In this document: piece by piece, positions 566 to 55,154 of the stretch
Layout: each line of letters starts with the position of its first letter
Position numbering within the stretch: the stretch's first letter is position 1
Source: Collinsella sp. MSK.8.10
GTDB lineage: Bacteria; Actinomycetota; Coriobacteriia; Coriobacteriales; Coriobacteriaceae
Reading direction: 5' to 3'
NCBI RefSeq assembly: GCF_019041915.1
Contig: NZ_JAHPYF010000007.1
Coordinates: 76,287 to 140,286 of the forward strand
DNA length: 64,000 bases
The notes under the pieces: model-generated
Told to the model about the DNA's origin: nothing
What the model saw: the letters and a program-made list of their open reading frames with translations, nothing else
The model's database searches: none
Position numbers and translations under genes: made by a program

Positions 566-1702
566 ATGCGCCTGCCCATGAATACCTCGCTTGCCACGCT
601 CAAGCCCTCCGGTATCCGCCGAATCAACGCGCTCGCCGCTCAGCATCCGGGATGCATCGCGCTTGCGCTCGGCGAGCCTGATTTTCCCACGCCCGACGTG
701 ATTAGCGCCGAGGTGACCGCCGCACTGGGCCGCGGTGACACGCACTATCCGCCCAACAACGGTCGCCCTGCCCTGCGCGAGGCGCTATCCGCATATATGG
801 GCGAAGCGGGCCTTGCGTTTTCGGCCGACGAGGTCATCCTGACCGACGGCGCGACCGAGGCCCTGTCGGCAACATTCATGGCTATGCTCAACCCCGGCGA
901 CGAGGTTATTATTCCCACGCCGGCCTTTGGTCTGTACGAGAGCATCGTCGTAGCCAATCACGCCAAAGCGGTCTTTTTGGATACGGAGCCTGCGCAATTT
1001 CAGATTGACGAAGACGCGCTTCGCGCCTGTGTGACCCCGGCGACCAAAGCCATCGTCATCTGCTCGCCCAACAATCCCACGGGCTGCATTCTCAACGCGG
1101 CATCGCTCGACGCCGTGGCGCGCGTGGCAGAACAGGCGGGCATCTACGTAGTCTGCGACGACGTATACAACCGTCTGGTCTATGTGGATGGCTACGAGCG
1201 CTTTGCCCAGCGTCACCCGGAGCTGCACGAGCAGACAGTAGTCATCGAGAGTTTCTCCAAGCCATGGGCTATGACCGGCTGGCGCTTGGGTTGGCTCGCA
1301 GCGGCAGCCCCCGTCATCGCCGAGATTGCAAAAGCTCACCAATACCTAGTATCGAGTGCCGTCTCCTTCGAAATGGACGCCGCAGCTCGAGCCCTCACCG
1401 TCGACCCAACCCCCATGCTCGAAGTCTACCGAGCCCGCCGCGAACGCGTACTCGCAGCTTTAGATGCCATGGGCCTGGACGTCGTAGAGCCCGCAGGCGC
1501 CTTCTACGCCTTCCCCAGCATCAAAAAGTTCGACCTAACAAGCGAAGCCTTCTGCATCAAAGCCATCAAAGAGGCAAACGTAGCCCTAGTCCCGGGCGAC
1601 TGCTTCGGCACCGAAGGCCACATCCGCCTAAGCTATTGCGTTTCCGATAAAGACCTGGACGAAGGCCTAAATCGCCTGTCCACCTTCATTTCAACCTTAT
1701 AG
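566..1702 (+). CDS. PLP-dependent aminotransferase, class I/II
   Basis: A fold-type I aminotransferase of 378 residues, the usual size for aspartate/aromatic aminotransferase relatives. It transfers an amino group between an amino acid and a 2-oxo acid using pyridoxal phosphate in the cytoplasm. Visible motifs are the SPNNPTG substrate loop (about residue 170), CDDVY and the PLP-lysine motif SFSKPWAMTGWRLGW (Lys near residue 232). The ATG at 566 has AGGA five bases upstream. A second ATG lies four codons in. From about 1330 to the stop the codon choice changes to CTA, GTA, TTA and CGA codons that are rare in neighbouring genes. Substrate specificity cannot be read from sequence. Confidence 0.85.
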   Translation: MRLPMNTSLATLKPSGIRRINALAAQHPGCIALALGEPDFPTPDVISAEVTAALGRGDTHYPPNNGRPALREALSAYMGEAGLAFSADEVILTDGATEALSATFMAMLNPGDEVIIPTPAFGLYESIVVANHAKAVFLDTEPAQFQIDEDALRACVTPATKAIVICSPNNPTGCILNAASLDAVARVAEQAGIYVVCDDVYNRLVYVDGYERFAQRHPELHEQTVVIESFSKPWAMTGWRLGWLAAAAPVIAEIAKAHQYLVSSAVSFEMDAAARALTVDPTPMLEVYRARRERVLAALDAMGLDVVEPAGAFYAFPSIKKFDLTSEAFCIKAIKEANVALVPGDCFGTEGHIRLSYCVSDKDLDEGLNRLSTFISTL

Positions 1703-1740: not shown

Positions 1741-1991
1741 ATTATGAGTGGGGACGTCGGTCAACGAAAACCCGGGCTGCCCAAAGTCAACGCAGGCACG
1801 CTCCGCCGAAGGCCAGGCGCAAGGTTTTCGTAGATTCCGCACGAGCCGAAGAGCACTTAATGTGCTCTTCGTGCGAGCCAGGACTTGACCGAACGAAAAC
1901 CTTGCGCCTGGCCTTCGGCGGAGCGTGCCGGATGGTGGAATTGTGTGCAGCCCGGTTTTCCGTTGACCGACGCCGGGGTCCCCGCCATAAT
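1741..1991. repeat. 251-bp imperfect palindrome between the aminotransferase and rplJ
   Basis: Perfect 36-bp arms (1795-1830 and 1894-1929) flank a centre containing GAGCACTTAATGTGCTC. Outer arms (1741-1780 and 1947-1991) pair again with a few gaps. The core from AAGGTT (1821) to AACCTT (1903) is related to the core of the palindrome at 31811-31987, but the outer arms are not. The right outer arm contains the rplJ promoter. The left arm holds a mirror copy with the -35 and -10 only 12 bp apart. No other terminator was seen after the aminotransferase gene. Function is unknown: mobile palindrome, terminator or cruciform insulator are all possible. Confidence 0.85.
1963..1991 (+). promoter_or_regulatory. 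Promoter of rplJ-rplL
   Basis: TTGACC (1963-1968), a 17-bp spacer, then CATAAT (1986-1991). Each box matches the sigma-70 consensus at five of six positions. It lies inside the right arm of the large palindrome and immediately precedes the L10 leader. Confidence 0.7.
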
Positions 1992-2207: not shown

Positions 2208-2729
2208 ATGCCCCAGCAGTACAAAATCGACAAGGTTGCAGAGATCGAGTCCCGTATCGCCGAGAACGCCGGTCTGTTCGTCGTCAACTACAACGGTCTG
2301 ACGGTTAAGCAGGCTCAGGAGCTGCGTCATCAGCTTCGCGAGTGCGGCGCCGAGATGAAGGTCTACAAGAACAACCTGGTCAAGATCGCTCTCAAGAACC
2401 AGGAGCAGCCCGAGCTCGACGAGATCCTCGCCGGCCCCGTCGCTTATGTGTTCTACGAGACCGAGCCGGTCGAGGCCGCTAAGGCCCTCAAGGACTTCTC
2501 TGCTAAGTCCAAGGGCGTCCTTGAGATCAAGGGCGGTATCTCCGACGGCAAGGCCGTTTCCGCTGATGATGTTAAGGCTATCGCCGAGCTGCCCACCAAG
2601 GATCAGCTTCTCGGCCAGATCGCCGGTCTCATCTCCGGTTTCGCTCGCGACATCGCTGTCTGCGTCAACGGCGTTTCCTCTGGTCTCGCTCGTTCGATCC
2701 AGCAGGTCTCCGAGCAGAAGGCAGCCTAG
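2208..2729 (+). CDS. rplJ: 50S ribosomal protein L10
   Basis: A 173-residue L10, which anchors the L7/L12 stalk to 23S rRNA and represses its own operon by binding the leader. The N-terminal part reads VAEIESRIAENAGLFVVNYN and continues with the family motif LRHQLRECGAEMKVYKNNL. Length is normal (165-180). A strong GAGGAGGT lies eight bases before the ATG at 2208. It is followed by rplL after 102 bp. rplK and rplA, which often precede rplJ, are not in this window. Confidence 0.97.
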   Translation: MPQQYKIDKVAEIESRIAENAGLFVVNYNGLTVKQAQELRHQLRECGAEMKVYKNNLVKIALKNQEQPELDEILAGPVAYVFYETEPVEAAKALKDFSAKSKGVLEIKGGISDGKAVSADDVKAIAELPTKDQLLGQIAGLISGFARDIAVCVNGVSSGLARSIQQVSEQKAA

Positions 2730-31153: not shown

Positions 31154-31780
31154 ATGAAGAAGCTGTATCTACTCCGCCACGGTCAGACGGAGTTCAACGT
31201 CAAAAAGCTGGTCCAGGGCCGCTGCGATTCACCGCTCACCGACTTAGGCCGTCAGCAAGCCGGGATGGCAGCCGCATGGCTCAAAGCCCACGGCGTCGTC
31301 CCCGACAAAGTGGTCTCATCACCCTTAGGCCGAGCCATGGACACGGCAAGTCTCGTCGCATGCGAGCTCCTCGGCCCGGACGCAGCAGCCGAGCCCTGCG
31401 AAGGCATTATCGAGCGCTGCTACGGCTCCTTCGAAGAAGGCCCGCACGGCGCGCTGCCCACCGACGTCTGGGATCCGGGCGAGGACCTGGTCCCCTTCGG
31501 AGGAGAAGGAAGCCAGGCGCTGCAAGAACGTATGGTGGATGCGCTTACCAATATCATGGGCTCCGGGGGCATCGAAACCCTTCTAGCAGTAAGCCACGGC
31601 AGCGCCAGCCGCCAATTTATCAAGGCCGCAGCCCCAGAGGACTTCGAGCTCCCAACAAAACTCCCCAACTGCGCCATCATGATCTTCGATTTCGATGAGG
31701 CAAAGCCACAAGCAGAAGGCGAACCGTCCCAATGCAAGTTCACCCTCCAGCAAATAGTGGACCCCCAACAAAGTCATTAG
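31154..31780 (+). CDS. Histidine phosphatase family protein (phosphoglycerate mutase-like)
   Basis: 208 residues with the phosphohistidine motif LRHGQTEFN (His near residue 9) and the second catalytic His in LLAVSHGSASRQ. A central Glu lies in EGIIERCYGSFEEG. These are the features of cofactor-dependent PGM-like phosphatases. The substrate is unknown. GGGGAGAG lies before the ATG. Codon use differs from neighbours, with many TTA, CTA, CGA and GGA codons, as in the 3' half of the aminotransferase at 566-1702. Both genes are followed by related palindromes. Confidence 0.85.
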   Translation: MKKLYLLRHGQTEFNVKKLVQGRCDSPLTDLGRQQAGMAAAWLKAHGVVPDKVVSSPLGRAMDTASLVACELLGPDAAAEPCEGIIERCYGSFEEGPHGALPTDVWDPGEDLVPFGGEGSQALQERMVDALTNIMGSGGIETLLAVSHGSASRQFIKAAAPEDFELPTKLPNCAIMIFDFDEAKPQAEGEPSQCKFTLQQIVDPQQSH

Positions 31781-31810: not shown

Positions 31811-31987
31811 CGTGGCGTTCCCAGTGTGCGGCGGAGGGGGCGGGCCTGAGACATATTAAGGTTGTCGCGAGTTCCGCACGAACAGGAGAGCACTTAATGT
31901 GCTCTCCGTCGTGAGCAGGACTGTAGAGCAGCAACCTTAATATGTCTCAGGCCCGCCCCCTCCGCCGCACACTGGGAACGTGCCACG
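31811..31987. repeat. 177-bp palindrome between the phosphatase gene and rplC
   Basis: Perfect 48-bp arms (31817-31864 and 31932-31979) extend by a further six bases each side with a two-base bulge. The centre contains the 17-base GAGCACTTAATGTGCTC. The core from AAGGTT (31858) to AACCTT (31938) aligns with that of the palindrome at 1741-1991, including TTCCGCACGA on the left and AGGACT on the right. The outer arms are unrelated between the two loci. No T-run terminator follows. Confidence 0.9.
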
Positions 31988-32032: not shown

Positions 32033-32056
32033 GATACGCCCGCAGCCGTGTATACT
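32033..32056 (+). promoter_or_regulatory. Candidate promoter and shared motif upstream of rplC
   Basis: GGATACGCCCG (from 32032) is followed by CCGTG and a -10-like TATACT (32051-32056). The same GGAYACGCCCG...CGTG arrangement lies before rplB (33898) and rpsL (14748). No good -35 is visible. The 190-nt stretch that follows would be an untranslated leader. Confidence 0.4.
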
Positions 32057-32239: not shown

Positions 32240-32860
32240 TTGATCAGCATGATTCTCGGCCGCAAGATTGGCATGACCCAGGTTTGGGACGAGGACGACA
32301 ACGTCGTTCCCGTCACGGTCATCCAGGCTGGCCCCTGCGCTGTCTCGCAGGTTAAAACTCAGGCAACCGACGGCTATGACGCCGTCCAGATCGGTTTCGG
32401 CGACATCAAGGCCAAGAACGTGAACAAGCCCATGGCTGGTCACTTCGCCAAGGCTGGCGTCGAGCCTGTCCGCTTCCTTCGTGAGGTCCGCGTCGAGAAC
32501 GGCGAGGAGCACAAGGTCGGCGAGGTCGTCACCGTCGCTGATTTCGCTGATGTCGAGAAGGTCGACGTCATCGGTACCTCCAAGGGTAAGGGCTTCCAGG
32601 GTCGCATCAAGCGCTGGGGTCAGCGCCGCGGTCCTATGACGCATGGTTCTCACTTCCAGCGTCACCCCGGTTCTATCGGTCAGTGCGCCTATCCTGCGCG
32701 CGTCCTCAAGGGCGTCAAGATGGCCGGTCACATGGGTAACGAGCGCGTTACCGTCAAGAACCTTTCCGTTGTCCGCATCGATGCCGAGCAGAACCTCATC
32801 TTGGTCAAGGGCGCTGTCCCGGGTGCCAAGAATGGTCTCGTCGCCATCCGTATGGCCTAA
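32240..32860 (+). CDS. rplC: 50S ribosomal protein L3
   Basis: An L3 of about 206 residues that binds near the peptidyl-transferase centre. The typical start [14 protein letters not shown] is followed by [44 protein letters not shown] marks the conserved central loop in the usual place. TTG 32240 has TTGGGA at seven bases. ATG 32249 is possible but has a worse spacing. It is the first gene of the S10-type operon here because rpsJ is elsewhere. Confidence 0.95.
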
Positions 32861-55098: not shown

Positions 55099-55154
55099 TT
55101 ACGTTATAGCTAGCTATATTATAGGAAGGTATAATATAGATAGCTATAACGTAA
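55099..55154. promoter_or_regulatory. AT-rich palindrome upstream of the first ATPase gene
   Basis: Left arm 55099-55123 and right arm 55130-55154 are inverted copies of 25 bp with one mismatch around a GGAAGG loop. The arms contain TTACGTTATAGCTA and CTATATTATA. The right arm ends 14 bp before the start codon at 55169, next to the ribosome site, so it can act as an operator or a translation-blocking hairpin. Confidence 0.75.

Follow-up and report, generated by a model that had tools for sequence, protein, structure and literature searches.

The stretch of DNA analysed here (the window) comprises 64,000 nucleotides of Collinsella sp. MSK.8.10 and contains two giant palindromes, each located between the end of a plus-strand gene and a ribosomal operon, as the initial annotation had stated; rplC lies downstream of one and rplJ downstream of the other. 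The element at the rplC boundary (element 2; 31811..31987, plus strand, with its core in F orientation) is preceded by a gene of the histidine phosphatase family (His_Phos_1; 31154..31780, plus strand) and followed by rplC (32249..32860, plus strand, its start read from the sequence), the first gene of the ribosomal operon. Its left arm (31816..31864) and its right arm (31932..31980), both given on the plus strand, are 49 nt long each, 100% complementary and separated by 67 nt, and the 48-bp perfect arms first reported for this 177-bp element were therefore correct to within one base. Once a 2-nt bulge is allowed, 54 of 54 positions are paired across 31811-31987. The core together with inner arm bases (AAGGTT...AACCTT) occupies 31858..31938 on the plus strand, its invariant part TTCCGCACG...AGGACT extends over 31872-31922 on the same strand, and a short inner hairpin (31885..31907, plus strand) consists of 9 pairs and the loop TTAAT. 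The palindrome of element 2 is genuine and greatly exceeds what chance would produce. In five shuffles by a first-order Markov model the longest perfect arm measures 13, 12, 12, 12 and 11 nt, as opposed to 49 nt in the window, and the RNA fold of the element has an energy of -150.9 kcal/mol (z -18), with 0 of 200 shuffles as low.

No U-tract was found after the hairpin of element 2, and the database record examined has no annotation under it. The consensus promoter scan yielded no promoter at the rplC boundary; a TATACT sequence downstream of the element (32051..32056, plus strand), identified by eye, is a possible -10 of the rplC promoter. The window is close to C. aerofaciens (99.4% over 181 bp to NZ_OY725717). 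The record NZ_OY725717.1 is filed as plasmid 6 of C. aerofaciens TSDC17.2-1.1, yet the rplC operon is located on it, and it probably represents a chromosomal fragment. Elsewhere in the window, an AT-rich palindrome at 55099-55154 has 25-nt arms (96%) and a 6-nt loop, and lacks the core.

The element at the rplJ boundary (element 1; 1755..1972, plus strand) lies between an aminotransferase gene (566..1702, plus strand) and rplJ (2208..2729, plus strand). It has inner perfect arms of 37 nt (1795-1831 and 1893-1929) and outer arms of 29 nt that pair at 90% (1755-1783 and 1944-1972). Its core, TTCCGCACG...AGGACT (1835..1885, plus strand), aligns with that of element 2, which bears out the reported common core including TTCCGCACG and AGGACT, and the outer arms of the two elements, as had also been noticed, do not match each other. 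No cores besides these two were found in the window.

An inverted promoter copy at the rplJ boundary

The native rplJ promoter (TTGACC-17-CATAAT; 1963..1991, plus strand) was identified by a consensus scan, and its -35 lies inside the outer right arm of element 1. On the left flank, TTGACC...CATAAT with a shorter spacer is present on the minus strand (1741..1764). Judging from these sequences, the outer left arm of element 1 repeats the native rplJ promoter in inverted and decayed form. The repeat finder also reports the left copy in the window (29 nt, 90%), and gapped pairing comprises 91 of 98 nt in this element and 87 of 97 nt at locus L024, and is also far-reaching at L008 (67/82) and L015 (88/108).

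All 22 sequences compared (the window plus 21 strains) carry the 29-nt promoter to the right of the element without any difference, and 21 of the 22 still agree when a few flanking bases are included. The element itself was seen at this boundary in 20 of the 22; the core is lost in L413, and L417 is cut by the contig end. By a loose pattern, in which 5 errors in 15 were allowed, 20 of 21 sequences have an inverted -35 copy on the left side of the core (L417 does not), and 19 of the 21 have an inverted -10 copy there. The letters of the -35 copy vary, the variants being TTGACC, TTGGCC, TTGAGC, TTGGCT and TTGGGT. A loose pattern for the element itself flagged L430, where none is seen by eye. In L428, a relative without the element, the rplJ promoter follows the stop of the upstream gene at a short distance, and no inverted copy of it is seen by the repeat finder. 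Because this element-free site carries the promoter alone, the right-hand promoter is the native one and the left-hand one the copy. Genome G013 (L425) carries at this site an element of the same subtype whose arms are wholly different and in which no promoter copy was seen by eye, so that the arms have been replaced there.

A core common to many palindromes

Element 2 is a member of a widespread family of palindromes, built of a core and arms. In G001, the nearest genome compared, BLAST gave 26 matches, corresponding to 25 real copies and one 17-nt chance match, and the covariance model lists 27 copies. All 25 copies fold as long hairpins that have the core in common, each with its own near-perfect arms. 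The initial annotation had reasoned that identical arms in all genomic copies would indicate an ordinary repeat, and arms conserved across species an RNA gene. Neither pattern was found: the G001 copies do not share arms, and between species the arms differ at thrB (L014, L059, L060) as well as at rplC.

An alignment of 27 cores (25 from G001 and the two from the window) is invariant at TTCCGCACG and CAGGACT. Covariation in the inner hairpin is supported by three of five measures; 36 cells changed on both sides versus a shuffled mean of 12.1, and the covariation score is higher than in all 500 shuffles, whereas pairs with double changes (4 versus 3.3 shuffled) and pair types (6 versus 7.2) do not exceed the shuffles.

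The covariance model finds core copies in 39 of 43 Collinsella genomes, at 0 to 35 per genome. The search across Coriobacteriia that the initial annotation had proposed was run with a profile of the core, and 53 of 149 genomes and 23 of 78 genera were found to carry it. Outside the order, matches are few and weak (11 genomes, E 0.008 to 1.9e-7), with about 1.5 false matches expected at E 0.01 over 149 genomes; in seven of the eight genomes examined among these 11 the same core is present in arms when folded, and the stretches examined for L056, L063 and L085 missed an element or did not show one. A pattern scan of named genomes returned at least 120 stretches, at least 17 of which, from at least 14 genomes, belong by record title outside Coriobacteriia and other Actinobacteria. 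Among the matches listed, the non-actinobacterial sources are Bdellovibrionota, Omnitrophota, Chloroflexi, Dormibacterota, Nitrospira, Gammaproteobacteria, Thauera and two Lachnospiraceae-type MAGs; nearly all of these sources are MAGs, so that misbinning is possible. The folded non-actinobacterial examples have the same design, with arms of up to 84 nt (81 matched), the two Lachnospiraceae-type examples being weak. Twelve genomes were reached via such loci, and the plain core order is present in 9 of them and a reversed control pattern in none; the three genomes without the plain order are those of L219, L232 and L284. The order of the two conserved strands is switched in L219 and L284, where the alternative stem bears the long arms, and a looser version of this arrangement is present in L378 (Ilyobacter). 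A looser pattern matched in 14 of 296 Actinomycetota genomes (13 of 26 Coriobacteriia and 1 of 270 others), and the control matched once. Some tips read GCGAAGC, GCGTAGC or GCGCAGC. GCGNAGC is an unusually stable DNA mini-hairpin, and as a lead we note that tips of this type would fit a fold of single-stranded DNA.

Several possible identities of the core were considered. The covariance models of Rfam 15 gave no match in the window, and in 17 loci nothing but adjacent tRNAs scored above threshold; models of microRNA precursors overlap, below threshold, with the elements of L003, L060, L078 and L268. A known structured RNA was rejected, since no Rfam family reaches threshold at an element in the window or in these loci. 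A phage origin was also rejected, as core matches were short or weak (best E 0.05) and the permuted core gave none; two patterns searched in viral contigs had no match. Likewise, a plasmid origin was rejected, the matches being Collinsella NZ_OY725717 plus short ones, such as one of 25 nt in Ilyobacter. In a search for an autonomous copy in 1.74 Mb of loci near elements, 322 of 325 arm-flanked cores are shorter than 110 bp, and no gene was found inside a core in these loci, which overlap and are centred on short cores. Longer centres (228, 181 and 144 bp) are present in three elements (L274:4981-5209, L279 and L244). The coordinates of the G001 copies show by eye no pattern that would indicate a lagging-strand bias of core orientation, and no printed description was found in open-licence PMC text among the matches listed.

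Placement beside genes

The right arm lies no more than 30 bp from a gene in 76 of 119 elements, and the left arm in 9 of 119; these 119 of 161 elements are from G001, G002 and more distant genomes, with orthologues in G001 and G002 both counted, and this statistic, like those on mismatches, U-tracts and pairing decay below, omits the rplJ subtype, which the search pattern missed. The right-hand gene converges on the element in 76 of 119, a different set, its stop being mostly within about 20 bp. The orthologue of element 2 is an exception to the right-side rule, its near gene lying on the left side, 35 bp off. A smaller class is positioned just upstream of start regions, namely those of thrB, leuS, cysS and a serA-like gene, and also of L-serine ammonia-lyase, gatB, LysR and deaminase genes; the genes used for placement come from our own caller, and the start-class calls of L081, L082, L157, L161 and L162 look doubtful. 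The element positions at thrB, leuS and gatB are kept in other genera. Among 19 loci mostly from other phyla, for which distances were taken from longest-ORF gene calls, 7 have their right-hand stop no more than 15 bp away, and three of these 7 belong to one genome.

Oppositely oriented pairs of elements, spaced about 200-290 bp apart, are present at L004/L015, L007/L020, L134, L138 and L182; at L182 one member of the pair comes after the gene that lies upstream of thrB, and its partner stands ahead of thrB itself. Many loci of family f3 (L065, L070, L160, L176, L177, L187, L192, L199 and others) contain a motif like CGCAGGTTGAA within about 25 bp past the right arm, which in L071 forms a hairpin of its own.

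Giant palindromes that lack the core are present at the rplC or rplJ boundary in G041, G042 and G020 (five of nine loci, picked by eye; loci L123-L133 belong to the element pattern scan and were left out of this reading). They are located in L116 (2372-2479, arms of 54 nt), L117 (1045-1152, 52 nt), L118 (2380-2491, 40 nt), L426 (2316-2406, 44 nt) and L429 (2305-2433, 42 nt, 86% paired). The palindrome of L118 contains GGGGACAGGTCCC, which we take to resemble RAYT-associated repeats. Together with the closeness of the elements to genes, these core-less palindromes suggest that a palindrome at these boundaries is tolerated or useful, whatever its sequence. Their presence at the same two boundaries in other Collinsella also keeps alive the role as a cruciform insulator or boundary that had been proposed at the outset. 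A clean empty site with a target duplication was not found, and at L143 the whole spacer differs. Two other large hairpins occupy, in L366 and L367, the spacer in which L364, L365 and L371 carry an element.

Pairing and divergence of the arms

Over the 20 nt next to the core the arms pair at 94%, and at a distance of 40-50 nt pairing has come close to the control (0.61 versus 0.56; 161 elements). In 3691 arm pairs from 127 distinct elements there are 99 mismatches, of which 35 are G.U when read on the core strand, 26 would be G.U on the opposite strand and 38 are of neither kind. The corresponding numbers are 16, 15 and 23 in the gene-end class, 7, 2 and 8 in the start class, and 12, 9 and 7 in the remaining elements. 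If one RNA strand were under selection, one kind of mismatch should prevail, and only the small start class leans in this way; the little strand preference fits upkeep at the DNA level better than selection on RNA.

At the rplC boundary, the mean divergence among 20 strains is 1.3% in the 250 bp downstream, 5.8% in the core and 18.5% in the arm (gaps included). Nine positions have changed in both arms at this boundary, versus 1.03 expected if the arms were independent (5 haplotype pairs). At pnp, nine double-arm changes were likewise counted in the first element (2.47 expected, 20 haplotype pairs) and nine in the second (0.57 expected, 19 haplotype pairs). In these counts the haplotype pairs overlap, so that one event can count in several; pairs below 75% left-arm identity were dropped, which mostly removed the few haplotypes phased one base off. 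Single-sided changes number 7 at rplC, 63 in the first pnp element and 27 in the second. An example of a paired change is L102, where an A-G / T-C difference from the neighbouring strains is matched between the two arms. The pnp alleles L334, L348 and L350 have mismatched arms that come from two different haplotypes, and look like recombinants such as would arise by recombination in the core; these alleles indicate that perfect arms are not indispensable. Inner arm bases recur by eye at several loci, and exchange of the whole centre between copies may explain part of the paired change. At the 3' end of pnp, the right arm includes a canonical terminator tail, AGCAAAAGGGC, and the left arm contains the inverted copy of this tail, which is consistent with inverted copying of flanking DNA.

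Possible origins of the palindromes

The best explanation, in our view, is a repeat that is seeded by its core and copies adjacent DNA in inverted orientation by fold-back synthesis, a reading that we hold tentatively and judge to be not quite evenly balanced between right and wrong. The core is an internal loop that is formed by two strands and capped by a short hairpin, on which one strand folds, and the arms would be local DNA in inverted duplicate. By nucleating fold-back (intrastrand template-switch) DNA synthesis, the core would allow a strand that ends or pauses there to snap back and copy the gene-side DNA, an inverted copy of which would thereby be placed on the other side of the core. 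Repeated events would renew the inner arms as perfect palindromes, rewriting both together, and older outer copies would decay. Palindromes would perhaps be tolerated or favoured at gene ends, between the end of a gene and the next promoter. The observations behind this reading are the constant core in arms that differ from locus to locus, the surplus of paired arm changes, an arm divergence that greatly exceeds that of the flank, the one-sided proximity to genes and the inverted promoter copy at rplJ; the fold-back event itself, the core as its cause, any movement to new sites and any benefit at the boundaries are what we infer. Template switching in E. coli reportedly turns imperfect palindromes into perfect ones (PMC7202029). 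The idea that such elements duplicate flanking DNA in inverted orientation, raised in the initial annotation, is directly supported at rplJ by the promoter copy and agrees with the data at pnp; at other loci either side might be the native one.

Several observations weaken the fold-back reading. A core that crosses phyla needs a selected or self-serving cause, and none was found; a clear inverted copy of native DNA is present at one locus, and a second locus is consistent with one; one-sided arm changes are common, and whole-centre exchange could explain the paired ones; and there is the failure to find the clean empty site mentioned above. In addition, the tight spacing to stops and starts is easier to explain at the RNA level, and the start class leans to G.U on its sense strand. 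A more specific form of fold-back copying, which we regard as unlikely, is that a single-strand folding module, common to distant phyla and able to carry its long arms on either stem, is a natural fold-back primer that mirrors gene-end DNA and keeps palindromes perfect with the help of a trans-acting factor.

The main rival is an RNA boundary element, in which the transcript would form a giant hairpin beside the coding region that stops exonucleases or serves as a site of RNase III cleavage and thereby defines mRNA ends, with a protein bound to the core and pairing under selection; we consider it somewhat unlikely. The closeness of the right rather than the left arm to genes, with stops and starts both served, the short stop distances in loci mostly of other phyla, the positions kept at thrB, leuS and gatB, the leaning of the start class and the two inner-hairpin measures that exceed their shuffles are in line with such a role. 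However, gene-end copies are read antisense and start copies sense, so that no one RNA strand is common to them; G.U and A.C mismatches are similarly frequent, both overall and in the gene-end class; the arms diverge far more than the flank; and two other covariation measures and Rfam offer no support. The hairpins might also be bidirectional intrinsic terminators, as the initial annotation had suggested, and their position just after stop codons and their great stability would suit this function. We consider it very improbable: a U-tract follows the hairpin in 6 of 86 gene-end elements in one direction and 4 of 86 in the other (orthologues counted), a canonical terminator is already present beside 9 of the 86 (the pnp locus of several strains accounts for eight of them), and a conserved core would not be expected. 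An ordinary intrinsic terminator was rejected on the rarity of U-tracts.

It is also conceivable, and in our judgement decidedly unlikely, that the core is a non-autonomous mobile repeat, REP-like or MITE-like, that was inserted in the middle of palindromes or hairpins, so that the arms would be older than the core. Such a repeat would account for the variable copy number between Collinsella genomes and could find its targets in palindromes like the core-less ones of G041, G042 and G020. Those palindromes, however, are of other sequence, arms of more than 60 bp are present in Bdellovibrionales, no gene was seen inside any copy in the loci near elements, and the Y1 transposase family was not found in three copy-rich genomes. 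Fold-back copying from the core remains the reading that we prefer.

Comparison with known systems

REPs share stems, whereas here the centre is common to the copies and the stems are locus-specific, with some inner arm bases recurring. Our elements are otherwise reminiscent of REP, BIME and REPIN sequences, which according to PMC3733652 are short palindromes that recur many times in the intergenic regions of a genome and often abut stop codons with their ends. The intergenic placement near stop codons is a trait that our elements have in common with REPs and REPINs. The fixed GTAG/CGTC tag at the stem foot is not, as the feet of the arms differ; GTAG is present in one core subtype, and others have GTCC, GCCC, GTTC or TTGA. 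The Y1 transposase (PF01797) is present in 45 of 149 genomes, G001 included, and had no match in G077, G111 and G107, which contain 28, 23 and 12 copies, respectively. A Y1/RAYT transposase as obligate partner was rejected, because it had no match in these copy-rich genomes. The shared terminal inverted repeats of MITEs are lacking as well, since the outer arm ends differ between loci.

RNA internal-loop modules, such as k-turn-like motifs and ribozyme cores, have two conserved strands between variable stems, as our elements do. Some core subtypes have GA opposite GA by eye, the switched strand order of L219, L284 and, loosely, L378 is a further point of resemblance, and the core may bear some likeness to a k-turn. 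In contrast to these modules, no Rfam family was found here, the stems measure about 20-80 bp and there is little strand preference.

Fold-back products are expected to have an arm that is the inverted form of native adjacent DNA, which was found at rplJ and is consistent with the data at pnp, and arms that change together, as observed at three elements, along with many single changes. They resemble the products of quasi-palindrome correction, in which, according to PMC7202029, the nascent strand serves as template and imperfect palindromes become perfect. Quasi-palindrome correction is an accident at any palindrome, whereas here a conserved core recurs in the centre and a native promoter has been copied across it. 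Perfect inverted repeats near terminators are likewise enriched downstream of stop codons, according to PMC13155455; that survey describes variable spacers and conserved arms, while here the spacer is conserved and the arms vary.

The giant palindromes described here are placed at gene boundaries of gut Coriobacteriia, and they offer many natural, alignable cases in which the formation and upkeep of palindromes can be followed between strains, and the question whether template switching can be directed by a sequence can be addressed concretely. Known bacterial palindromic repeats have conserved stems; the present elements are the reverse, with a conserved centre and stems that are rapidly rewritten.
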